A stretch of DNA of 44,838 nt from a virus. Shown here piece by piece: positions 2 through 33,583 of the stretch. Positions within the stretch are counted from its first letter, which is position 1. Each line of letters begins with the position of its first letter. The stretch is taken from positions 1 to 44,838 of IMG/VR virus record IMGVR_UViG_3300023087_000852, one strand, 5' to 3'. The notes beneath the pieces were generated by a model. The model saw nothing but the letters and a program-made list of their open reading frames with translations, was not told where the DNA came from and made no database searches. The position numbers and the translations under genes are program-made.

Positions 2-856
2 ACAGTGACCGGCACACCTAATATATCAAACACACTGGACAGCAAAACTGTTTGGACATTTACGTCAGGAGAAGATTTAACCACTGACGAGTTTGCACAG
101 GTAGATGCTGACGGCAATCACTGGGCTATTGGACTAATGCAATGGAGTCAGATCAACGACACACAGGACTCGTTCTGGAGCACAGAGAACAACACGGTAT
201 CAGCATCAAGCAAAAGAGACTACGCTGTGAGTTCCGGTAATGCCAGTGCATTTGATGGTGAGTTAGATCTAGACGGCTTGGTTAGCAACAGGATCTCATC
301 TACCATAGGAAACAAGCAGGACTTCGACTCAGGCATAGCACAGGACACTTGGGTCATAGTGTGTGCCATATTCAACAAAACAGGCAACCAGATTGCTGTT
401 AGAGTAAATGGTGATAATGCATTTACACCTGTAAATGACTATGATAACGCACTAAACACCAATATGGATTTGCGATTCTTCCGCAACAGAGCCAGCGAAC
501 GAATGCAAGGTCAAATGGCAGAGTTTTTGACGTTTGCTGGATTGCCAGGCACAGGTGGCACAGATGTCAGCCACGTAGAACGCATAGAAGGATACCTTGC
601 TCACAAGTGGGCTCAAACAGGCAGTCTACCTTCAGATCATCCTTACAAGAGTTCAGCACCAAAACAAAATGCTGTATTGGTGAATACCGACACCAAAGTC
701 AGTCTTGATGGTTCTGACATTGACAGGATTGTGCTGTGGAAAAATCACAGGCAAACATCAGGTAATATGGCGTTCAACACATACAACAAAGACGTAAACA
801 CTCGTCCTACAACAGGATTGATGTATCCTCGTGTAAGGACACGCAGACGCGGATAA
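2..856 (+). CDS. LamG/concanavalin-like virion protein, C-terminal part (5' end outside window)
   Basis: The reading frame is open from the first bases of the window, so only the C-terminal part of about 284 residues is seen; the GTG at 5 need not be the start. It looks like a beta-rich concanavalin A/LamG-type domain: the segment IEGYLAHKWAQTGSLPSDHP near residues 197-216 is the signature seen at the end of many LamG-like phage and bacterial surface proteins. Such domains bind glycans, so a tail-fibre or receptor-binding role is inferred. It ends in a basic tail (RVRTRRRG) and is followed within one base by a late-promoter-like octamer and two further virion genes. No enzyme motif is seen. 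Confidence 0.7.
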   Translation, partial: TVTGTPNISNTLDSKTVWTFTSGEDLTTDEFAQVDADGNHWAIGLMQWSQINDTQDSFWSTENNTVSASSKRDYAVSSGNASAFDGELDLDGLVSNRISSTIGNKQDFDSGIAQDTWVIVCAIFNKTGNQIAVRVNGDNAFTPVNDYDNALNTNMDLRFFRNRASERMQGQMAEFLTFAGLPGTGGTDVSHVERIEGYLAHKWAQTGSLPSDHPYKSSAPKQNAVLVNTDTKVSLDGSDIDRIVLWKNHRQTSGNMAFNTYNKDVNTRPTTGLMYPRVRTRRRG

Positions 857-5594: not shown

Positions 5595-6125
5595 ATGCTT
5601 ATGAGAACAGACGACCTAGGTATACCTCGATTTACAAATCGCGATTTAATCGATATGATCTATTCAGGTCATGCGGATAAAGTGCATGTGGTATTATGTA
5701 CACCTACAGACGAAATAGACAAGTTTAATACTGCAATGGAAGAACAAGGTATGGATCCATTGCAAAAGTATATTCCATTAGATGTAGATCAAAAGACTTT
5801 TGACGGAGTATGTCAAAGCGAATGGTTTATGCCTGAAGAATATAAAGCGATTAGCGTATATGAATATGTTCTAGGTAAAGCAGAAACACCTTGCCCGCAA
5901 CACGTACAAGATCGTATTTGGGAAGAACTAGACGAATTTAAAAAACGTGGTATGCACGATCTACTACGCTATATGATTTATCTTGTAGACTTTATGCGTG
6001 AGAATGACATTGTATGGGGTGTAGGACGTGGATCAAGTGTAGCAAGTTATGTGCTGTATTTGATAGGTGTGCATCGTATAGATTCAATCCAGTATGGCCT
6101 GGATTGGAGAGAGTTCTTGAGATAA
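5595..6125 (+). CDS. truncated DNA polymerase III alpha-like protein
   Basis: This 176-residue protein ends in a segment (about residues 125-176) that matches the bacterial Pol III alpha subunit just before its active site: LLRYMIYLVDFMREND, then VGRGSSVASYVLYLIGV, then GLDWREFL, corresponding to PGRGSAAGSLVAYxLGI...LLFERFL in DnaE. In DnaE the catalytic aspartate segment (PDFDxD) follows immediately; here the gene stops instead, so it cannot be a polymerase. No PHP domain is present. Such fragments occur in other marine T4-like phages. A DNA- or nucleotide-binding role, or interference with host Pol III, is conjecture. There is no clear ribosome site. Confidence 0.65.
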   Translation: MLMRTDDLGIPRFTNRDLIDMIYSGHADKVHVVLCTPTDEIDKFNTAMEEQGMDPLQKYIPLDVDQKTFDGVCQSEWFMPEEYKAISVYEYVLGKAETPCPQHVQDRIWEELDEFKKRGMHDLLRYMIYLVDFMRENDIVWGVGRGSSVASYVLYLIGVHRIDSIQYGLDWREFLR

Positions 6126-6152: not shown

Positions 6153-6536
6153 ATGGCAAGACAACAATCAGGGCGTAAAATTTATAAAACAGCCCAAGGT
6201 AAAAATATCGATCTTGATCTTCTGATCAGTAGAAATGAATTAACTCCTGCTGTAGGCAATGCAAGAGTTAATGCACGAGGAGATGAACTAGGACCAGGTG
6301 GTAAAATTGTTCGCAAGCGTGAACAAGTTCTTAAAGAATATTATAACACAAAAGGTGTTGTAGAAGAAACCGTTGTTAGACCAAAACCTATCACTGAGTT
6401 AGAAGAAGAAATGTTTGATGAGTTTGATAATGAACCAGTGCCTGAAAAGCCTGTTGAAACAAAAAAATCAAAAACACAAACATTAGACGAATGGATTGAA
6501 GACGAAGACGGCAATTTTATTAGAAAAGGTGAATAA
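6153..6536 (+). CDS. conserved T4-like hypothetical protein
   Basis: A 127-residue charged protein with the conserved block RNELTPAVGNARVNARGDEL and GPGGKIVRKRE (residues about 29-59), followed by an acidic, probably disordered C-terminal half ending in EDEDGNFIRKGE. I recognise the block from marine T4-like phages but not its function; a head or assembly-related role is a guess from position. A strong AAGGAG ribosome site precedes the ATG, and its stop overlaps the next start (TAATG). Confidence 0.55.
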   Translation: MARQQSGRKIYKTAQGKNIDLDLLISRNELTPAVGNARVNARGDELGPGGKIVRKREQVLKEYYNTKGVVEETVVRPKPITELEEEMFDEFDNEPVPEKPVETKKSKTQTLDEWIEDEDGNFIRKGE

Positions 6537-6943
6537 TGGCTGTAAATTTTGGAAAAGTTTTTAAAGGAACTTTAACTCCTATTAAAGATAGAGTTCTTGT
6601 CACTGATATGTATTTTGGTGAACAAAAAACAAAAAGTGGATTAATTATTACTAATGATGATGGAAATACTAGAGGCATTTATCCTCGCTGGGGTAAAGTA
6701 CATGCAAAAGGTCCAGACAACAAAGATGATTACCAAGTAGGTGACTGGATTTTAATTGAACATGGTCGTTGGACAAGAGCATTTAATGTTGATGATGGCA
6801 ATGGCGCAATAGAACTAAGAATGATTGATCAAGAATGTATTATAGGGTATAGTAATGAAAAGCCAAATGATGTTTACATTGGTGACGAATATGCGAATGG
6901 CGAATCAACAACTATAGACCCATCAAATTTTGTGGGGGCATAA
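6536..6943 (+). CDS. GroES/gp31-like co-chaperonin
   Basis: The 135-residue product has the GroES barrel order: LTPIKDRVLVTDM (cf. IRPLHDRVxV) at residues 12-24, a mobile-loop position KTKSGLIITND (cf. ETKSAGGIVLT) near 31-41, then GKVHAKGP and YQVGDWILIEHG (cf. VKVGDxVxF) near 66-76. T4 gp31 is the analogous phage co-chaperonin that lets GroEL fold the major capsid protein gp23. The mobile loop GLIITND keeps the hydrophobic residues expected to bind GroEL. The C-terminal 30 residues are an extension. Identification is by motif order and length, so moderately sure. Confidence 0.65.
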   Translation: MAVNFGKVFKGTLTPIKDRVLVTDMYFGEQKTKSGLIITNDDGNTRGIYPRWGKVHAKGPDNKDDYQVGDWILIEHGRWTRAFNVDDGNGAIELRMIDQECIIGYSNEKPNDVYIGDEYANGESTTIDPSNFVGA

Positions 6944-7302
6944 TGACAAACCCATTCGCAGATATTGAACGCTTTGGCTCAGCGTGTGATCAAGAGCCTA
7001 ATGAAGCAAACTACAAAATGTATCTTGATCTAATTCGAGAAGAAACAGACGAACTGGAAGAAGCCATTATAGACAACGATAAGGTAGAACAACTTGACGC
7101 ACTAGTTGATATTCTAGTTGTTACTATGGGTGCTATCCGTGCCGCAGGTTGGGACGGAGAAGGTGCTTGGAAAGAAGTAATGGATACAAACTTTGCTAAG
7201 ATCGATCCAGACACTGGCAAAGTTCGTAAACGTGAAGATGGCAAGGTACTGAAGCCAGAAGGTTGGAAGGCTCCAGAACTTGCACAGTTTATAGGAGACT
7301 AA
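6943..7302 (+). CDS. MazG/HisE-type nucleotide pyrophosphohydrolase
   Basis: An all-alpha NTP pyrophosphatase of 119 residues. Metal-binding acidic motifs are visible: REETDELEEAI (residues 27-37) and EQLDALVDILVV (residues 44-55), matching the ExxE...ExxD pattern. Phage enzymes of this type hydrolyse NTPs or dNTPs to the monophosphate and PPi and adjust nucleotide pools or alarmones. The C-terminal part with DTNFAKID resembles that found after the core in phosphoribosyl-ATP pyrophosphohydrolase-like phage proteins. It overlaps the GroES-like gene by one base and is followed immediately by the Bax inhibitor gene. A second MazG-type protein is at 38238. Confidence 0.75.
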   Translation: MTNPFADIERFGSACDQEPNEANYKMYLDLIREETDELEEAIIDNDKVEQLDALVDILVVTMGAIRAAGWDGEGAWKEVMDTNFAKIDPDTGKVRKREDGKVLKPEGWKAPELAQFIGD

Positions 7303-7303
7303 T

Positions 7304-7987
7304 ATGGTAGCAAGAACTGCTAATGTTGCAAGTCGAGCTTATGATGAAGGCTTGCGTAAATTTATGATTAATATGTACAATCACACTGCTCTAGGATTAG
7401 CAGTAAGTGGATTTGTTGCATATCTATGTTACACAACAGGATTTATTCCAACTGGATTATTAGGTCTTGTGGTTATGTTTGCGCCGCTAGGTATGATTTT
7501 ATATTATAGTTTTGCAGGCGGCAATTGGACACTACAAGGCATCACAAGATTCTATTACGCATTTACAGCAGTAATGGGAATTAGTATGAGTACAATATTT
7601 GTTGTATATACAATGACAAGTATTGCACAGGTATTTTTTATTACAAGTGCAACATTTGCAGCAGCAAGTTTATATGGATATACAACTAAACGTGATCTAA
7701 CCGCAATGGGTAGTTTTCTTATTGTAGGATTAATTGGCATTATTATTGCTAGTATTGTAAACATCTTTCTAGCAAGTTCAGCATTTGCATTTGCAATTAG
7801 TATTATCGGTGTACTAATTTTTGTCGGTATGACAGCATGGGATACGCAAACAGCAAAAAATTTATTTCTTTCTGCTCCTAATATGGAAGTTGCAGACAAA
7901 TATGGTGTCCAAATGGCATTGAGTTTATATCTTGACTTTGTGAACTTGTTCCAATTCTTATTAGCACTATTAGGTAATAGAGAATAA
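7304..7987 (+). CDS. Bax inhibitor-1 (YccA/YbhL) family membrane protein
   Basis: A 227-residue integral membrane protein with about seven hydrophobic helices. Family hallmarks are YGYTTKRDLTAMGSFLIVGL in the middle, GMTAWDTQTAK at about residues 180-190, and SLYLDFVNLFQFLLALLGNR at the C-terminus. Bacterial members are inner-membrane proteins linked to calcium or proton leak and to regulation of the FtsH protease (YccA). The sequence is full length with the conserved aspartates, so it may be functional and was probably captured from a bacterial host. It ends the transcription unit; a sigma70-like promoter follows. Confidence 0.9.
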   Translation: MVARTANVASRAYDEGLRKFMINMYNHTALGLAVSGFVAYLCYTTGFIPTGLLGLVVMFAPLGMILYYSFAGGNWTLQGITRFYYAFTAVMGISMSTIFVVYTMTSIAQVFFITSATFAAASLYGYTTKRDLTAMGSFLIVGLIGIIIASIVNIFLASSAFAFAISIIGVLIFVGMTAWDTQTAKNLFLSAPNMEVADKYGVQMALSLYLDFVNLFQFLLALLGNRE

Positions 7988-8049: not shown

Positions 8050-8640
8050 ATGAATTATAACAAGGATCGCAAGATCCTAGCAGATGTTGATGGTGTTTTT
8101 CTTAATTGGGAAGAAGCATTTGAACGTTGGATGTCTGCACGAGGATATGAAATTGCAGCACCAGCCCAATATAAAATGTCAATCAAATATGGTATTGAAC
8201 AACACACTGCTGATCATCTAGTAGGAATTTTTAATAACAGTGCATGGATTGGATATTTAAATCCTTTGCGTGATGCTGTAGATTGGGTACATAAACTAGT
8301 ATCAGAAGGTTGGCATTTTGAATGTATCACTAGTTTGTCAGATGATCCTTATGCTGCACGATTACGAGAAATGAACTTAGAACATTGGTTTGGCAGAGGC
8401 GCAATGCGTAGAGTGCAATGTATAGCAACTGGTGCAGACAAAGATGAGTATTTAAAAGCCTATGAACATAGTCATTGGTGGATTGAAGATAAGCCTGAAA
8501 ATGCAATGGCAGGACTTTATGCAGGCCACAAGCCTATTTTGATACAACACGACTATAATCTAGACTTTGTCGAAGCAGATGTGACTGTGGTTGAAAACTG
8601 GCAGCAAATTTATAATCTTATTACTAACAGCGAGGAATAA
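8050..8640 (+). CDS. HAD-type 5'(3')-deoxyribonucleotidase-like phosphatase
   Basis: A 196-residue HAD-superfamily hydrolase. The nucleophile motif is ILADVDGV (Asp12, Asp14), the middle has TSLSDD at the motif II position (about residues 94-99), and WWIEDKPENA near residue 142 supplies the metal-binding acidic motif. The layout matches the NT5C/nucleotidase group, which dephosphorylates nucleoside monophosphates; substrate is not readable. It is the first gene behind the sigma70-like promoter at 7993 and sits with exonuclease, clamp-loader and ThyX genes, which fits a role in recycling nucleotides from degraded host DNA. Confidence 0.65.
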   Translation: MNYNKDRKILADVDGVFLNWEEAFERWMSARGYEIAAPAQYKMSIKYGIEQHTADHLVGIFNNSAWIGYLNPLRDAVDWVHKLVSEGWHFECITSLSDDPYAARLREMNLEHWFGRGAMRRVQCIATGADKDEYLKAYEHSHWWIEDKPENAMAGLYAGHKPILIQHDYNLDFVEADVTVVENWQQIYNLITNSEE

Positions 8641-8641
8641 A

Positions 8642-9163
8642 ATGATCCATGCAATGATCGACTTAGAAACACTGCACACTACACCTCAAGCAGCAGTCCT
8701 TACAGTCGGGGGTGTAAAGTTCGATCCAAAAAGCAATAGCGAACCTTATGGAGAGTTTTACTATAAACTAGATTTAGATACGCAAGATCGTGCAGTAAGC
8801 GATGATACAATCGCATGGTGGGGACAACAAGATCCTAAAGTACAAGAAGAAGCGTTCGGTGCAGAAGGGCGTGAACATGTTGACGTATTCTTAGACAGTT
8901 TGCCCAAATGGATGGTAGGTGTTGATGTGCTTTGGGGTCATGGTTATGGCTTTGACATTACTATTATTGAAGATATGTTACGACAGCGTGGCAAGCCTAT
9001 TCCATGGCAATTTTGGCAAGTGCGTGACAGCAGAACATTGTTTGCTTGTTGTAAAGTAGATCCACGCAAAGCAATGCAAAGTGATTTACACAATGCACTT
9101 GCAGATGCATATTTTCAAGCAAAAGGTGTGCAAATGGCATACAAGGAACTTGGACTATGTTAA
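8642..9163 (+). CDS. DEDDh 3'-5' exonuclease (DexA/Rv2179c-like)
   Basis: A 173-residue exonuclease of the DnaQ fold. The first motif is MIDLETL near the N-terminus (Asp and Glu), the second is in GHGYGFDITII (about residues 100-110), and the third is HNALADA near residue 150, the classic HxAxxD of DEDDh enzymes. The block IAWWGQQDPKVQEEAF is typical of the Rv2179c/DexA-like group. T4 DexA is a related 3'-5' exonuclease of single-stranded DNA. I chose the ATG directly after the upstream stop over an in-frame upstream TTG/ATG extension that would overlap that gene. The next gene overlaps it by 7 bases. Confidence 0.75.
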   Translation: MIHAMIDLETLHTTPQAAVLTVGGVKFDPKSNSEPYGEFYYKLDLDTQDRAVSDDTIAWWGQQDPKVQEEAFGAEGREHVDVFLDSLPKWMVGVDVLWGHGYGFDITIIEDMLRQRGKPIPWQFWQVRDSRTLFACCKVDPRKAMQSDLHNALADAYFQAKGVQMAYKELGLC

Positions 9164-9951: not shown

Positions 9952-10130
9952 AAGTTATAATGTTTGATCCACCTAGCGGTTGGCGCTACGGCTTTCCTAA
10001 ACCTATTCCGAAAAAGTGTATAGGCAATGATATGGAATTTAGAAAATACTTGACAGAAAATGGATATCCAGATAGTATGTTAGATGTAGCAAGTAAGTAT
10101 AGTCGCTATTGGGAACAGGAAGAAGAATGA
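9948..10130 (+). CDS. small conserved T4-like protein
   Basis: A 60-residue product starting at the ATG of ATGA that overlaps the upstream stop, and ending in an ATGA overlap with gp44. It begins MKVIMFDPPSGWRYGFPKPI, a pattern I recall from small proteins near the replication genes of marine T4-like phages, and ends in an acidic EQEEE tail. No function is known to me. Tight coupling to gp44 suggests co-expression with the clamp loader. Confidence 0.55.
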   Translation: MKVIMFDPPSGWRYGFPKPIPKKCIGNDMEFRKYLTENGYPDSMLDVASKYSRYWEQEEE

Positions 10131-11041
10131 AAGAACTATGGGTAGAGAAGTATCGTCCAAACACAGTGGACGGTTATGTATTTAGAGATGACGCACAAAG
10201 AAACCAAGTTAAAACATGGATCAAAGATAAAACTATTCCGCATTTGCTTTTTAGTGGCAATGCTGGCATTGGTAAAACTACTCTTGCTAAATTACTTTTT
10301 AATGAACTTGATGTAAATCCATTAGACATATTAGAAATCAACGCAAGTCGCACAAACTCAGTAGATGATGTGCGAGACAAGATTGTTGCGTTTGTGCAAA
10401 TGATTCCATTTGGTGACTTCAAGGTTGTGTTACTAGATGAGGCTGATTACTTGTCGCCAAACGCACAAGCAGCATTACGTGGCGTTATGGAAGAATATCA
10501 TACAACTGCACGTTTTATTCTTACTTGTAATTATCCAAATAGGATCATTCCAGCAATACATAGTAGATGTCAAGGTTTTCATATTGCAAAAATTGATCAA
10601 ACTGAGTTTACAGCAAGAGTTGCCCAAATTCTAATTACTGAAGGCGTAACTCCAGACTTGGATACACTTGATACATATGTAAAAGCAACATATCCAGACT
10701 TGCGCAAATGTATCAACATGGTGCAAATGAATAGTGTAGACGGTAAACTTGTTTCACCAACAGAAGGTGACTCAGGTGAAGCAGACTGGAAACTGGATAT
10801 GGTAGAACTGTTCAAAGCAGGTAAGATTCAAGATGCACGTAAATTATTATGTGGTACTGTGCGAGCAGAAGAAATGGAAGAAATCTATCGTTGGCTTTAT
10901 GACAATATAGAATTGTTCGGAGATGAGGAACAACAAGACAAAGCAGTGCTAATTATTAAGCAAGGTTTAGTAGATCATACGCTAGTTGTTGATCCAGAAA
11001 TTAACCTTGCAGCAACATTAATCAGATTAGGATCATTATGA
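10127..11041 (+). CDS. 44: sliding clamp loader ATPase gp44
   Basis: A 304-residue AAA+ clamp-loader large subunit (T4 gp44 is 319). Walker A is GNAGIGKT at residues 44-51, Walker B VVLLDEAD at 100-107, and the clamp-loader SRC arginine-finger motif is at 146-148 in IHSRCQG. The N-terminus [12 protein letters not shown] is diagnostic of RFC-type loaders. It uses ATP to open the sliding clamp and load it at primer-template junctions for gp43. I chose the ATG in the ATGA overlap, since an upstream TTG extension would run deep into the previous gene. gp62 is not seen in this window. Confidence 0.92.
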
Positions 11042-11379
11042 CTTATATTGTAAATGACGCCTGTATTAGGTGTAAACACATGGATTGTGTAGAAGTGTGT
11101 CCTGTGGATTGTTTTTATGAAGGTGAGAACATGTTGGTTATTCACCCTGATGAATGCATTGACTGTGGTGTATGCGAACCAGAGTGTCCTGCTGATGCAA
11201 TTTTACCAGACACAGTAGAGGGCACAGAACAGTGGGTAGACTTCAATAGAAAATGGAGTGAAGTGTGGCCAAATATTACAGAAATGCGTCCAGAAGATGT
11301 TCCATCAGATGCAAAGGAATGGGAAGGCGTAGAAAATAAAATGCAATATTTTTCAGAGGAGCCCGGCCGTGGTGACTAA
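11038..11379 (+). CDS. fdxA: FdxA-type 7Fe ferredoxin
   Basis: A full-length 113-residue ferredoxin of the [3Fe-4S][4Fe-4S] class. Cysteines are at 9, 12, 17, 21, 25 and 40, 43, 46, 50, in the spacing of bacterial Fdx[21 protein letters not shown] and [14 protein letters not shown] are nearly canonical. The C-terminal extension ([16 protein letters not shown]) is the one seen in alphaproteobacterial FdxA. It is a soluble one-electron carrier. The gene sits between gp44 and thyX with a 4-base overlap, so it is expressed with replication and thymidylate genes. An electron-donor role for a phage reductase, radical SAM enzyme or host pathway is inferred. Confidence 0.9.
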
Positions 11380-20749: not shown

Positions 20750-21248
20750 TACAAGACTAGAAAATCCTGTTCCAAAGTTTGATTTGGCTACAGACAATCC
20801 AAGACCTCTTGCATTTGAAATGATTGAATTAATGCAAAAGGAAGGAGGGTTAGGATTATCAGCAAATCAAGTGGGAATAAATGGGCAGATATTTGTTATG
20901 AAATGTTTGTTAAATAAAAAATACGGCGATACAATCGTTGTAATAAATCCGCACATTAAAGGTATTAGTAAAGAATTAGAAGAAGGAATTGAAGGGTGTT
21001 TAAGCCATCCGGGGTTGACACTTAAAGTAAGACGTCCAATTAGTTGTGTTGTTGAATTTGATACGTTGACAAATGACTATAAAGATGTTATACATGTAGA
21101 GACAAAATTTAATGATATTGACAGTAGAATATTTTTACACGAATATGATCACTTACAAGGAATACAATTCATTAATAGAGTTAGCAGACTAAAACTTAAC
21201 ATGGGTTTAAAAAAGCAAGCAAAAAGGAACAAAAATGGTAGAACCTAG
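20724..21248 (+). CDS. def: peptide deformylase
   Basis: A 174-residue peptide deformylase with all three metal-site motifs: GLSANQVG (residues 44-51, variant of GLAAxQ), EGCLS (90-94, Cys ligand) and HEYDHLQG (139-146, both His ligands and the catalytic Glu). It removes the formyl group from nascent proteins. The C-terminal end [12 protein letters not shown] is short and basic. Two ATG codons stand at 20724 and 20727. It begins within dnaJ and ends within the clpA-like gene. Phage deformylases are known in marine phages, where fast turnover of new proteins has been proposed. Confidence 0.93.
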
Positions 21249-23484
21249 CCAAGCATTACAAGTAGTATTTGATAAGGCAGTTAAAGACGCAAAGAAATTA
21301 CAGCATGAATATGTTACTCTTGAACATCTTCTGTTTGCAATGCTGTGTGAAGAACAATTTTCTACAGCATTAAAAGGGTTTGATACAGATGTAGACCTAT
21401 TGAAAAAGAATGTAGAAAATTATCTCAAAACAAAATTAAACGAAATTAAAACAGAAGCAAAAAAATATAAACCTGTTAAGACAGGCACTGTTGAGCGGGT
21501 TTTAAATCGAGCTTTTGCACAAGTATTATTTCAAGGACGCAATCAAATCGAAATTACTGATGTTTTTATTAGTACATTAAGCGAAAAAAGAAGTTATGCG
21601 TTCTTTGCATGTCAACAAGCAGGCATTCAGAAAGATAAGTTTATCCAATATATGAGTGCAGAACTTGAATTAGATATAGTAGCAGACGAAGACATGGAAA
21701 ATGCTGGTATTGCTAACAAAGCATTAAAAGCATTTACTGACGATCTCAATGCCGATGTTAAAAAAGGTCGTATAGATCCTGTTATCGGACGGGAAGACGA
21801 AATAGAATCACTAGCACTTGCACTAGGACGCCGCACAAAATCAAATGTGCTTATGGTCGGCGATCCAGGTGTGGGTAAAACTGCTATTGCTGAAGGTTTA
21901 GCATGGAAAATTGTAAACAACGATGTTCCAGAGTTTTTAAAAGAATACAATGTTTATGCACTTGATATCGGCAGTATGCTTGCAGGTTCAAAATACCGCG
22001 GCGACTTTGAAGAACGCTTTAAACTTGTGTTATCTGCACTACAGAAAAAAGGCAAAACTATTATGTTTATTGACGAAGCACACATGATTAGTGGCGCTGG
22101 CGCAGGTGGAAGTAATAGTGCAAATGATTTAGCAAATATGTTAAAACCTGCATTGTCTAAAGGTAATATCAAAGTTGTTGCTTCAACTACTTGGGAAGAG
22201 TACCGCAAGTACTTCGAATCAGATCGTGCGCTTATGAGAAGATTCCAGCGTGTAACTGTTGACGAGCCGAGTGCAGAAATTACAAAAGATATTTTACATG
22301 GTATTAAGAAATATTATGAAGAATTTCATACTGTAGAAATTACAGATGAAGCAATTGAAGCAGCAGTAAAACTTACAATCAAATATCAAGCAGATAAAAA
22401 ACTACCTGACAAAGCAATTGATGTTATTGATGTTGCATGTAGTAGGTTCAAGGTCAATAATCAGACAGAAAATAAAATTGTCACAGAAGAAAGTATTCAA
22501 TTTGAACTTGCAAAAATGGTTAAAATACCAAAAGAGCAAGTTGCAGAACGTGAGACAGAAAATCTTGCTAATTTAGAAACTAATATGAAAGGTAGTGTTT
22601 ACGGTCAAGACGAAGCAATCGAAGGTATTGTTGATAAAATACTTGTTTCGCAAGCAGGACTTAAACCAGAAGATAAACCGATTGGATCATTTGTGTTTAT
22701 GGGTCCGACAGGTACAGGTAAAACAGAAACAGCAAAACAACTTGCACATCATTTAGGTGTACAACTTGTACGATTTGATATGAGTGAATATCAAGAGAAG
22801 CATAGTGTTGCAAAGTTTATCGGTGCACCTCCAGGTTATGTAGGATTTGAAGACGATGCAGGACAGTTGATTATCAAACTGCAAGAAAATCCCAACTGTG
22901 TGTTGTTGCTAGATGAAATTGAAAAAGCACACCCAGATGTAAGTAATGTTTTATTGCAACTTATGGACAACGGTATGATCACTGGCAGCAACGGTAAGGA
23001 AGCAGATGCACGTAACAGTATCCTAATCCTAACAACAAATCTTGGTGCAAGAGAAGCAGAGAAAAATGCTATCGGATTTGGTGAAGAATCAGACGGTTCT
23101 GACTACGAAGATGGCGAATTGAAAAAATTCTTTGCACCAGAGTTTAGAAATAGGCTAGATGGCGTTATTACGTTTGCTAAACTTGGTAAGCCTGTGATGT
23201 TAAAAATTGTTGGCAAGTTCTTAAAAGAACTTAAAGATCAAGTTGCGGATAAAAACGTAGAAGTTTCTGTTACAGACGAAGCATTAGATTTGTTAGTAGA
23301 CAAAGGCTTTGATCGTAAAATGGGTGCAAGACCATTACAGCGTGTTATTGACAAAGATATTAAACGTCCTTTGTCAAGAATGCTATTGTTTGGTGATTTG
23401 AAAGACGGTGGTAAACTATCAATCAACGCAAAAGGCAAAGACATCGTCTTAAATGTTGAGAGTACTGTAATTGCAACAAGCTGA
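21235..23484 (+). CDS. ClpA-type AAA+ unfoldase
   Basis: A 749-residue Clp ATPase close to ClpA in length (758) and without the ClpB middle domain. An N domain (about 1-145) is followed by AAA-1 with Walker A GDPGVGKT (209-216) and Walker B MFIDEAH, and AAA-2 with GPTGTGKT (490-497), LLLDEIEKAH and IGAPPGYVG. The loop tripeptide IGF (613-615) matches the ClpP-binding motif of ClpA/ClpX, so it could feed a host ClpP. Together with deformylase and the J protein it may remodel or degrade host proteins. Confidence 0.9.
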   Translation: MVEPSQALQVVFDKAVKDAKKLQHEYVTLEHLLFAMLCEEQFSTALKGFDTDVDLLKKNVENYLKTKLNEIKTEAKKYKPVKTGTVERVLNRAFAQVLFQGRNQIEITDVFISTLSEKRSYAFFACQQAGIQKDKFIQYMSAELELDIVADEDMENAGIANKALKAFTDDLNADVKKGRIDPVIGREDEIESLALALGRRTKSNVLMVGDPGVGKTAIAEGLAWKIVNNDVPEFLKEYNVYALDIGSMLAGSKYRGDFEERFKLVLSALQKKGKTIMFIDEAHMISGAGAGGSNSANDLANMLKPALSKGNIKVVASTTWEEYRKYFESDRALMRRFQRVTVDEPSAEITKDILHGIKKYYEEFHTVEITDEAIEAAVKLTIKYQADKKLPDKAIDVIDVACSRFKVNNQTENKIVTEESIQFELAKMVKIPKEQVAERETENLANLETNMKGSVYGQDEAIEGIVDKILVSQAGLKPEDKPIGSFVFMGPTGTGKTETAKQLAHHLGVQLVRFDMSEYQEKHSVAKFIGAPPGYVGFEDDAGQLIIKLQENPNCVLLLDEIEKAHPDVSNVLLQLMDNGMITGSNGKEADARNSILILTTNLGAREAEKNAIGFGEESDGSDYEDGELKKFFAPEFRNRLDGVITFAKLGKPVMLKIVGKFLKELKDQVADKNVEVSVTDEALDLLVDKGFDRKMGARPLQRVIDKDIKRPLSRMLLFGDLKDGGKLSINAKGKDIVLNVESTVIATS

Positions 23485-31413: not shown

Positions 31414-32535
31414 ATGAAGTATAATGCATGGAATTATAACGATTTAAATGCTTTCCACGTAGAATTAAGTACACGTTGTAACGCAGCGTGTCCAGGCTGT
31501 CCAAGATTCTTACGTAATAGCACTAATGTCGATCCGGAAGTTGTGCAGACTGATATTACAATTGATTTGTTTAAAAGATGGTTTCCACTAGATCTTGTAC
31601 AAAAATCTAAAAGTTGGATATTTTGCGGAACACATGGAGATCCATTGGCCTGTAATGACATATATGATATATTAGATTATATATGCTCTAACAGTATAGC
31701 AACTATACAAATTAACACAAATGGTGGTTTGCGTACTCCGGATCATTTCCGTGCAATAGGAGAACTGTTTATAGAAACAACAAATGGTTTAGATCCAAAA
31801 CCAATGCGTAAAATTACATTTAGTATAGACGGCTTAGAAGATACTAACCATATATACAGAAGAAATGTTATTTGGGATAAAGCATGGAATAACATGATTG
31901 CCTATGCATATACAGGTGCGCATACTGATTGGGACTTTTTACAATTTAAACACAACAAACATCAAGTTGAACTCAGTAGAAAAATTGCAGAAGAAAATGG
32001 TATCAATTTTGTGTTAAAAAATCCATTTGGTGTAGATGGAACAGGTATGCCTGCATACGACAAAGACTATAACTTAGAATATGTGTTAGAACATGCTACT
32101 GATTACGGACATGACCATTATACACCTGCTCCATTAGGTTGGGAAGCAGATTTGCCAGAACCTGTTAAAGAAGAAGGCGTTATTGCCTGTAATAGTTTTA
32201 GAACTTTGCCATATCCATACCATGAAGAACCAATGGTTGAACTATATATAGATGCATTGGGAAGAGTTCATCCTTGTTGCTTTATAGGAAATAAAATGCA
32301 AGGTCCTAGATATGTTCCTGAAGCAAGAGAAATGCAAACACTACAAAAAGCACTAGGTGATGCTAACAATTTACATCATCATAGACTTGATCAAATTATA
32401 GACGGAGGCGTACTTGCAGTTTATTCAGACAGTTGGCAATCAAAATCAATCAGTCAATGCTGGGTCCAGTGCGGAAAATCCTGTGGAAAAGTCAGAGAAA
32501 TTGACAAACTCTTCGAACTCTCCGAAGAAGTGTAA
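31414..32535 (+). CDS. radical SAM protein with C-terminal SPASM-like Cys cluster
   Basis: A 373-residue radical SAM enzyme. The SAM [4Fe-4S] cysteines are C22-x3-C26-x2-C29 in RCNAACPGCPRF. FCGTHGDPL near residues 70-78 is the glycine-rich GGEP-like motif, and TFSIDGLEDTNHIYRR (near 134-149) is typical of the MoaA/PqqE/SPASM group. Late cysteines (CCF near 289, and CWVQCGKSC near 348-356) can bind an auxiliary cluster. SPASM enzymes modify peptides or proteins. It starts 4 bases after a late octamer. The next gene, another radical SAM, overlaps it. Confidence 0.8.
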   Translation: MKYNAWNYNDLNAFHVELSTRCNAACPGCPRFLRNSTNVDPEVVQTDITIDLFKRWFPLDLVQKSKSWIFCGTHGDPLACNDIYDILDYICSNSIATIQINTNGGLRTPDHFRAIGELFIETTNGLDPKPMRKITFSIDGLEDTNHIYRRNVIWDKAWNNMIAYAYTGAHTDWDFLQFKHNKHQVELSRKIAEENGINFVLKNPFGVDGTGMPAYDKDYNLEYVLEHATDYGHDHYTPAPLGWEADLPEPVKEEGVIACNSFRTLPYPYHEEPMVELYIDALGRVHPCCFIGNKMQGPRYVPEAREMQTLQKALGDANNLHHHRLDQIIDGGVLAVYSDSWQSKSISQCWVQCGKSCGKVREIDKLFELSEEV

Positions 32536-33583
32536 ATGGCTAGATAATCACATCAGCATGGATACTTTGGGTAATTTACGCCCTTGCTGTAATTGGGACG
32601 ACCGCGACAGAAAAGATCTTGTAAAAGTTTCAGATATTGAAAAATACAAAGACAGTGACTTTTTAGCAAGTGTTAAGAAAGATCTTGATAATGGAATATT
32701 TCCCGAAGGATGTAGAGATTGTAAAGAAGAAGAATCTTACGGCTTTGAAAGTTTACGATTGCAAAGCGAAAGAAAGTATAGAAACAATCGTAAAGACGCT
32801 GAAATAAAATTTGGAAACAAATGTAATCTTTCGTGTTCAATGTGCGGTCCTGTGAACAGCAGTCTTATAGATGCAGAACTTACAAAACTAGATAGCCAAG
32901 GTATACAACATAAACTAATACAAAGACACAAGTATTCGTTTGATGTATGGTATGAAGACGAAAACAATTTACAAAAACTTGCTGAATTTTTACACGATAG
33001 AGATGAAATACGTTTCACAGGTGGAGAACCAACTGTAAACAATTACCTTCAAAAGTTTTGCGAATATCTTTTAGTATATGATAGCAAACCTAGTTTACGT
33101 ATAACTACAAACGGAAACAATTTACCCACTAAACTACTTTCAATTTTAGAAAAATTTGATGTGGAGTGGCATTTTAGCATTGACGGTTATAAAGAAATAA
33201 ATGAATATATTAGGTATCCTAGCAATTGGGATAAAATTATAAAAAACATTGCAAAAGCACAACAAATTGGTACAAGTGATGTCTGTACAACTGTAAGTTG
33301 GATTAACGTAAAACATATGGAATCACTAGGTGAATGGATTATGTCAAATAATTTTGAAAGATGGGAAGTTTATCCTGTGAACAGTCCTAAAGAATTTGCA
33401 CCGTGTCATGCACCTGATGATCATAAACAAATTTATATAGACTTATGCGATGTGTATAAAGATCTTAAAAGAAGCTTACCGGCAGTTACTCGAGAACGTA
33501 ATATAAAACACTTTGAACAAGGCATGAGTTACCAAAAACATTTAGATAAATTCAGAGGTACTTGTATTGACATGGTTTTTTGA
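32414..33583 (+). CDS. radical SAM protein with N-terminal auxiliary Cys domain (twitch/SPASM-like)
   Basis: A 389-residue frame from TTG 32414 (GGAGG 5 bases before), which overlaps the first radical SAM gene by 122 bases. Later in-frame options are GTG 32483, TTG 32501 and ATG 32558, so the start is uncertain. A Cys-rich N-terminal part (CKW near 40, PCCNWDD near 58-64, GCRDCKEEE near 98) precedes the SAM site CNLSCSMC (near 137-144, CX3CX2C), and FTGGEPTVN follows. The order is reversed relative to the first protein. Peptide or protein modification is likely; the substrate is unknown. Confidence 0.7.
   Translation: MQFIQTVGNQNQSVNAGSSAENPVEKSEKLTNSSNSPKKCKWLDNHISMDTLGNLRPCCNWDDRDRKDLVKVSDIEKYKDSDFLASVKKDLDNGIFPEGCRDCKEEESYGFESLRLQSERKYRNNRKDAEIKFGNKCNLSCSMCGPVNSSLIDAELTKLDSQGIQHKLIQRHKYSFDVWYEDENNLQKLAEFLHDRDEIRFTGGEPTVNNYLQKFCEYLLVYDSKPSLRITTNGNNLPTKLLSILEKFDVEWHFSIDGYKEINEYIRYPSNWDKIIKNIAKAQQIGTSDVCTTVSWINVKHMESLGEWIMSNNFERWEVYPVNSPKEFAPCHAPDDHKQIYIDLCDVYKDLKRSLPAVTRERNIKHFEQGMSYQKHLDKFRGTCIDMVF

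Follow-up and report, generated by a model that had tools for sequence, protein, structure and literature searches.

The DNA analysed here is the 44,838-nucleotide virus record IMGVR_UViG_3300023087_000852 of IMG/VR, taken over its full length and referred to below as the window. It encodes a membrane protein of the Bax inhibitor-1 (BI-1, TMBIM) family, whose gene lies among the following features.

5595-6125, plus strand: stand-alone DNA polymerase III alpha-like piece (Pfam; phrog_11127 in PHROGs), start of the conserved neighbourhood
6153-6536, plus strand: conserved phage protein of phrog_14844 with no assigned role (PHROGs)
6536-6943, plus strand: GroES/gp31-like co-chaperonin, head morphogenesis (Pfam, PHROGs)
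6943-7302, plus strand: MazG-type pyrophosphohydrolase directly upstream of BI-1 (PRA-PH above the cut-off, MazG just below it)
7293-7297, plus strand: AGGAG, probable ribosome-binding site within the end of the MazG gene (read from the sequence)
7304-7987, plus strand: seven-helix membrane protein of the BI-1 family (PF01027), 227 aa (ORF, Pfam, predicted structure)
7841-7843, plus strand: codon of D180, equivalent to YetJ D171 (alignment)
7934-7936, plus strand: codon of D211, equivalent to YetJ D195 and US21 D201 (alignment)
8050-8640, plus strand: 5'-nucleotidase-like protein (phrog_420; PF06941 just below the cut-off)
8591-9163 (searched from 8624), plus strand: Rv2179c-like exonuclease (Pfam, PHROGs)
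10109-11041, plus strand: T4 gp44-like clamp loader, anchor gene of the presence/absence survey (PHROGs)

The BI-1 reading frame is complete, running from the ATG at 7304 to the stop at 7987 (227 aa), and a single base separates its start from the MazG stop codon at 7300-7302. On the 3' side a gap of 62 bases follows. With 18 promoter-like matches against 17.2 expected, the region after BI-1 shows no excess over chance. The sequence-only reading had placed the gene at the end of a unit of assembly genes, which is borne out in part: a GroES/gp31-like gene lies upstream and BI-1 is the last gene before the gap, but MazG belongs to nucleotide metabolism and the next genes upstream encode an uncharacterised phage protein and the DNA polymerase III alpha piece.

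The window belongs to a T4-related phage, as its PHROGs matches show (T4-like DNA polymerase, gp44, GroES/gp31-like protein, ThyX, PhoH, endolysin, and virion proteins). Homologues of the window genes with 95-100% identity are found on the contigs L001-L003, which are 135-257 kb long, and a comparison of clamp loaders places Pseudomonas jumbo phages of the PA5oct group (54%) nearest among annotated phages. Gp23-type (T4-like) capsid genes occur in 9 of the 17 records searched, most of which may be fragments. They were found in three of the ten records of the phage BI-1 clade defined below (clade A), including the 257-kb contig of L003, in all five records of a second viral set, and in one of two records without BI-1 (end fragment). 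PADLOC gave no match to defence or counter-defence systems for the five proteins submitted.

Some further genes of the window were noted. The 176-aa DNA polymerase III alpha piece at 5595-6125 (PF07733) coexists with a T4-like DNA polymerase in the same phage and has 110 homologous ORFs in 160 viral loci, repeat contigs counted. A ferredoxin with Fer4 and DUF3470 domains (11038-11379) sits between the clamp loader and ThyX, with 93 homologous ORFs in 160 viral loci. At 31414-33583 there are two adjacent radical-SAM-like ORFs whose product is unassigned.

The window protein matches the Pfam profile PF01027 (Bax1-I) over its entire length (1-207 of 207) with 174.6 bits (cut-off 34.1; E 3e-51), and its only PDB sequence matches at E<1e-6 are chains of Bacillus YetJ. 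An AlphaFold2 model was built from a 42-row alignment (mean pLDDT 83, pTM 0.79) and shows seven long helices and one of four residues. Among 995 chains compared, the best solved-structure match of the model is YetJ (Z 16.7, 183 residues aligned, rmsd 4.3 A, 26% identity); the YetJ chains score between Z 16.7 and 12.6 and the next-best match has Z 7.2. The protein is thus predicted to have the seven-helix, YetJ-like fold expected of BI-1/TMBIM proteins. The full-length Pfam match and the predicted fold confirm the earlier claim of a complete, seven-helix BI-1 (TMBIM) family protein. The ORF is also a real phage gene, as the relatives described below show. No PHROG family matched it, even at E 0.01.

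The description as YccA-like, in contrast, had to be replaced by YbhL-like. Of the three E. coli paralogues compared, YbhL is the closest (37% identity over 227 columns), whereas the FtsH modulator YccA shares 26% identity, and the NCBIfam YccA equivalog model NF007765 gives 41.7 bits, far below its cut-off of 353. YccA belongs to the same Pfam family and is of similar length, but it has Glu and Ser at the positions of D180 and D211. YbhL keeps both aspartates; it is, however, a cellular gene product that differs at most residues and has Gln where the window protein has Pro (P61 column).

Relatives were collected from IMG/VR. The scan with the window protein yielded 104, of which 80 were kept, and scans with two divergent members yielded 64 and 63 loci, many of them on the same contigs. 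For clade A a threshold of 300 bits was set against a profile built from 28 of its own members, leaving out L304, L334, and L336 (short or low-scoring) as well as the second viral set (L051-L080). The clade comprises 157 loci if repeat contigs are included; these collapse to 67 distinct proteins, on which all clade A counts rest. Most clade A BI-1 genes are situated among phage replication and nucleotide genes. In passing, a reverse transcriptase (phrog_1423; L045:7057-9060) was seen about 6 kb downstream of a clade A BI-1 gene on a 22.7-kb viral contig. NrdB is represented in L032, upstream of BI-1, by one ORF of 138 aa and another of 235 aa, against a single 373-aa ORF in the similar locus L031; this may be a split gene or a sequencing error.

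A phylogeny had been suggested as a check by the sequence-only reading, and it sets the phage proteins apart from the sampled bacterial ones. The 45 phage rows of a 146-row tree group in one clade (100/99, the bootstrap not being fully settled) with no bacterial row inside, and a tree with 67 phage and 26 bacterial rows recovers the same single clade with an SH-aLRT of 99. The bacterial rows are the best 80 of at least 575 relatives in one scan (74 different sequences in the tree); by their record titles they are alphaproteobacterial, with 45-54% identity. The second viral set (44-50% identity) is found in several cases near nrdA, nrdB, or thyX, and 22 of its 25 rows fall into a separate clade. 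Within clade A the median dN/dS is 0.157 and the maximum 0.34 (254 of 2211 pairs with dS of 0.1-1.5; higher dS values are partly saturated). The phage BI-1 clade is under purifying selection, and its own clade, the phage neighbours in many contigs, and this selection together identify BI-1 as a genuine phage gene.

How regularly the gene occurs at its site was surveyed with the gp44 clamp loader as anchor. Both the polymerase III piece and gp44 are present in 66 of the 80 loci, which were not collapsed by similarity. BI-1 is at the site in 15 of these comparable loci and absent in 51, copies elsewhere in the genome being possible. On a gp44 tree of 90 rows the presence of BI-1 changes 18 times, and at least four gains or losses are forced by well-supported branches. 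BI-1 is therefore an optional phage gene that comes and goes. The objection raised earlier, a scattered and decaying distribution in relatives, applies in its first half; decay is contradicted by a dN/dS of 0.16 and by the absence of interior stops from all 15 matches. By a simple hydropathy count no common membrane protein replaces BI-1 in the loci without it; two of these, L118 and L124, have a four-segment protein at the BI-1 site.

When annotated phage records were searched by tblastn, the window protein gave five weak matches (27-43% identity), namely three unannotated human faecal scaffolds and two Enterococcus phage records, and a query from the second viral set gave ten records. All of these are candidates that may include bacterial contamination; the one inspected carries no annotation. 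Among cultured jumbo phages, two have a gene matching Bax1-I, and the tblastn search at E 1e-5 with the window protein recovered neither gene. Gene 332 of Salicola phage SCTP-2 (MF360958.1, 294582-295253), annotated as hypothetical, scores 98.7 bits, above the Pfam cut-off, whereas EST35_0265 of PA5oct stays below it (21.4 bits, E 2.4e-4; cut-off 34.1). Among the five cultured jumbo phages searched, Atu_ph07, XacN1, and 121Q gave no Bax1-I match. BI-1 family genes are also present in other viruses, as GAAP in orthopoxviruses, in the US12-US21 family of cytomegaloviruses, and in giant viruses. At a probability of at least 0.95, BFVD lists proteins of giant viruses and of herpesviruses of the cytomegalovirus type, besides a few entries without a name; for the giant-virus and cytomegalovirus proteins the predicted fold is similar, at 11-24% identity. 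US21 and GAAP are held to derive from host TMBIM4 (excerpts of PMC10470750).

We then considered the residues on which the pH-sensitive Ca2+ leak of Bacillus subtilis YetJ depends. The earlier statement on the conserved Asp close to the C-terminus was correct: D211 is present, and so is D180, so that the window protein shares both dyad aspartates with YetJ. The D180 column is Asp in all 67 phage and all 80 bacterial proteins. At the D211 column 56 of the 67 phage proteins have Asn, 10 have Asp (the window protein included), and one has a gap; the bacterial proteins have Asp in 73 and Asn in 7 cases. Only 10 of 67 phage relatives thus keep both pore aspartates, and a single change within the phage clade accounts for the Asp at 211 in this window subclade of 10. 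At the end of helix 2 (window positions 70-76), the place of YetJ Arg-60, a basic residue occurs in 78 of the 80 bacterial proteins and in 29 of the 67 from phages, the alignment being approximate there; a first count over positions 50-72 had given 64 of 80 and 6 of 67. The window protein has none at 70-76, nor have 38 of the 67 phage relatives overall, and in the alignment as read by eye the latch Arg-60 of YetJ falls on Gly-73. The full triad of both aspartates and the basic residue is present in 71 of 80 bacterial proteins but in 2 of 67 phage proteins. The 25 proteins of the second viral set divide at the second Asp column into 14 with Asn and 11 with Asp; of the 10 checked for a basic residue at 70-76, 4 have one. 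A loss of key residues, the other objection raised beforehand, is accordingly seen in the relatives but at neither Asp of the window protein.

Two mutants of animal-virus homologues bear on these counts. In cytomegalovirus (HCMV) US21 the change D201N, equivalent to D211N, abolishes Ca2+ conduction, whereas a change of the first Asp does not (excerpts of PMC10470750); most phage relatives naturally carry this very change. In camelpox GAAP the equivalent D219N raised the single-channel conductance and removed the anti-apoptotic effect (excerpts of PMC4416878), and Asn is therefore no proof of lost conduction. Given the rarity of the triad in the phage proteins and the US21 result, a pH-gated leak is probably not the common function of the clade. 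The alignments suggest that the shared, selected function probably does not need the pH latch.

The phage protein could nevertheless be an ion channel or exchanger, a cation/H+ leak of the kind of YetJ, viral GAAP, and US21 that would limit hyperpolarisation or set Ca2+ or pH. The predicted YetJ-like fold, the two aspartates kept in the window subclade, and the channel function described for the animal-virus homologues (excerpts of PMC4416878 and PMC10470750) are in line with this, and the GAAP mutant indicates that the Asn-bearing proteins need not be inactive. Against it stand the prevalence of Asn at the second Asp and the missing basic residue in the phage relatives, the Ca2+ defect of US21 D201N, and the strength of the selection despite relaxed latch residues. 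We regard the channel as unlikely, though a serious competitor. The earlier suggestion that the protein tunes an ion leak is thereby weakened for the clade, in which most members are without the second Asp and over half without the basic residue, and stays open for the window protein.

The explanation we favour, tentatively and with rather less than even confidence, is that phage BI-1 binds the host FtsH complex as a decoy or competitive inhibitor. An ancestor of these large T4-related phages would have captured a YbhL-type inner-membrane BI-1 (TMBIM) gene, which would then have been kept as an optional gene amid replication and nucleotide genes. The protein would insert into the host inner membrane and bind the FtsH protease complex there, as YccA does with FtsH in E. 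coli and human TMBIM5 with the FtsH relative AFG3L2. Restraining FtsH would protect SecY, the envelope, and phage membrane proteins in the infected cell, to the presumed benefit of the phage.

Inhibition of FtsH-type proteases is reported for both models, YccA with FtsH and TMBIM5 with AFG3L2 (excerpts of PMC9379554), and the FtsH role of the family is also covered in PMC7876416 (excerpts). Besides ion leak it is the best-documented action of the family in bacteria and mitochondria. We count in favour of an FtsH role that YccA, a known FtsH modulator, itself has Glu and Ser in place of the dyad. Two points argue against it: the window protein is nearer to YbhL, for which no FtsH role was seen, than to YccA, and it keeps both aspartates, which leaves a channel role open for this protein. 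A search of 17 related virus records, none of them known to be complete, gave no FtsH (M41) and no Band_7/SPFH/HflKC-type match, so any partner would be the host's.

A hint comes from PA5oct, the only one of the five cultured jumbo phages searched in which FtsH was found. Its EST35_0265 gene, annotated as 'FtsH-interacting integral membrane protein', is followed after 40 bases by an FtsH gene whose product has M41 and AAA domains. The EST35_0265 protein was found, with at least 98.6% identity, in 11 records (two being the same phage), the neighbours being known from PA5oct itself. A profile comparison of EST35_0265 with the BI-1 alignment gave nothing, nor did a profile search, and no relatives were found with it in IMG/VR. 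Its sub-threshold Bax1-I score makes it a possible BI-1 relative in one lineage. The FtsH of the PA5oct phage group is reported in the MIJ3 paper, where it is suggested to maintain host viability; in the available excerpts of that paper the terms YccA and Bax do not occur. SCTP-2, which has a BI-1 gene, has no FtsH that we could find, and an FtsH-anchored search returned two other viral FtsH fragments, neither with a BI-1 match. Of the roles proposed by the sequence-only reading, blocking proteolysis remains the best option, with this single-lineage hint in addition; the binding to FtsH we infer.

A bolder version would have the BI-1 lineage remodelled from a pH-gated leak into a dedicated FtsH inhibitor or adaptor, BI-1 and an FtsH-type protease forming one control module common to bacteria, mitochondria, and phages that is host-targeted in the window relatives and self-encoded in PA5oct. 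This we consider rather improbable.

The N-terminal tails offered a separate candidate. The YccA11 variant lacks 8 residues and binds but escapes degradation (excerpts of PMC7876416), and phage tails are shorter than alphaproteobacterial ones (median 25 against 35 residues with bounded start choice, 26 against 35 in a first count). To the same column, however, the tail of both E. coli YccA and YbhL measures 27 residues. The phage tails are close to those of degradable wild-type YccA, and an escape of the YccA11 type was rejected.

An alternative to FtsH binding is that BI-1 is a general envelope-stress or host-survival gene that, like its Brucella homologue, keeps the membrane and the division machinery in working order with no specific tie to FtsH. 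Deletion of BrBI, an alphaproteobacterial BI-1 of Brucella, impairs membrane homeostasis and viability (excerpts of PMC7876416), and a patchy, optional distribution would suit such a gene. This explanation names no molecular target, however, and the raised HflK and HflC protein in the Brucella study points back to FtsH (excerpts of PMC7876416). We judge it unlikely, somewhat more so than the channel.

The arrangement of the genes suggested a joint module of BI-1 and the upstream MazG enzyme. MazG is directly upstream in 47 of the 67 distinct loci (taking the BI-1 start codon closest to the end of MazG), and another 13 have it within 1.5 kb. Two unrelated MazG types with a median identity of 20% share the site, with at least eight switches on the BI-1 tree as drawn, and eight loci in which no GroES lies in the 2.5 kb upstream, some being closely related, keep the pair intact. 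This pairing looked strong until loci without BI-1 were used as a control: 44 of these 51 have MazG at the site, so the adjacency is mostly a property of the site. Moreover, no MazG was seen in 7 of the 67 loci, and the number of MazG switches is unsure given the many weak branches of the BI-1 tree. A functional pair is therefore very unlikely. The substrates preferred by cyanophage MazG are dGTP and dCTP, and it has no activity on (p)ppGpp (abstract of PMC6850273), so a stringent-response story is not backed either. The interchange of MazG types, exemplified by window 6943-7302 and L031:7570-7974, is an observation in its own right.

That BI-1 is a host passenger gene or an assembly contamination with no role in infection would agree with the patchy distribution but is scarcely credible in view of the single phage clade with no sampled bacterial row inside, the purifying selection, and the recurring position among phage genes.

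Returning to the favoured role at FtsH, we propose that the BI-1 of these large T4-related phages, which are known from environmental sequence, probably steadies the membrane of the infected cell, perhaps by holding back FtsH, and that phages may control proteolysis in the membrane while they infect. The BI-1 family is ancient, widespread, and tied to cell survival; whether it first served as an ion leak or to control proteases is disputed. A phage clade that is under selection while most of its members have lost the pH latch amounts to a natural separation-of-function experiment. Tailed phages also join the poxviruses, cytomegaloviruses, and giant viruses as viruses with BI-1 genes. No paper on a phage BI-1 was among the matches listed for the openly licensed PMC literature (phage BI-1, YccA, PA5oct, SCTP-2); the family is known, whereas its setting appears to be undescribed, and the phage proteins carry a clade-specific change at functional residues. 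As a minor observation, the window also encodes a 749-aa AAA+ protein at 21235-23484 (phrog_4871, 'ATP-dependent protease'), which may be another connection between this phage and proteolysis.
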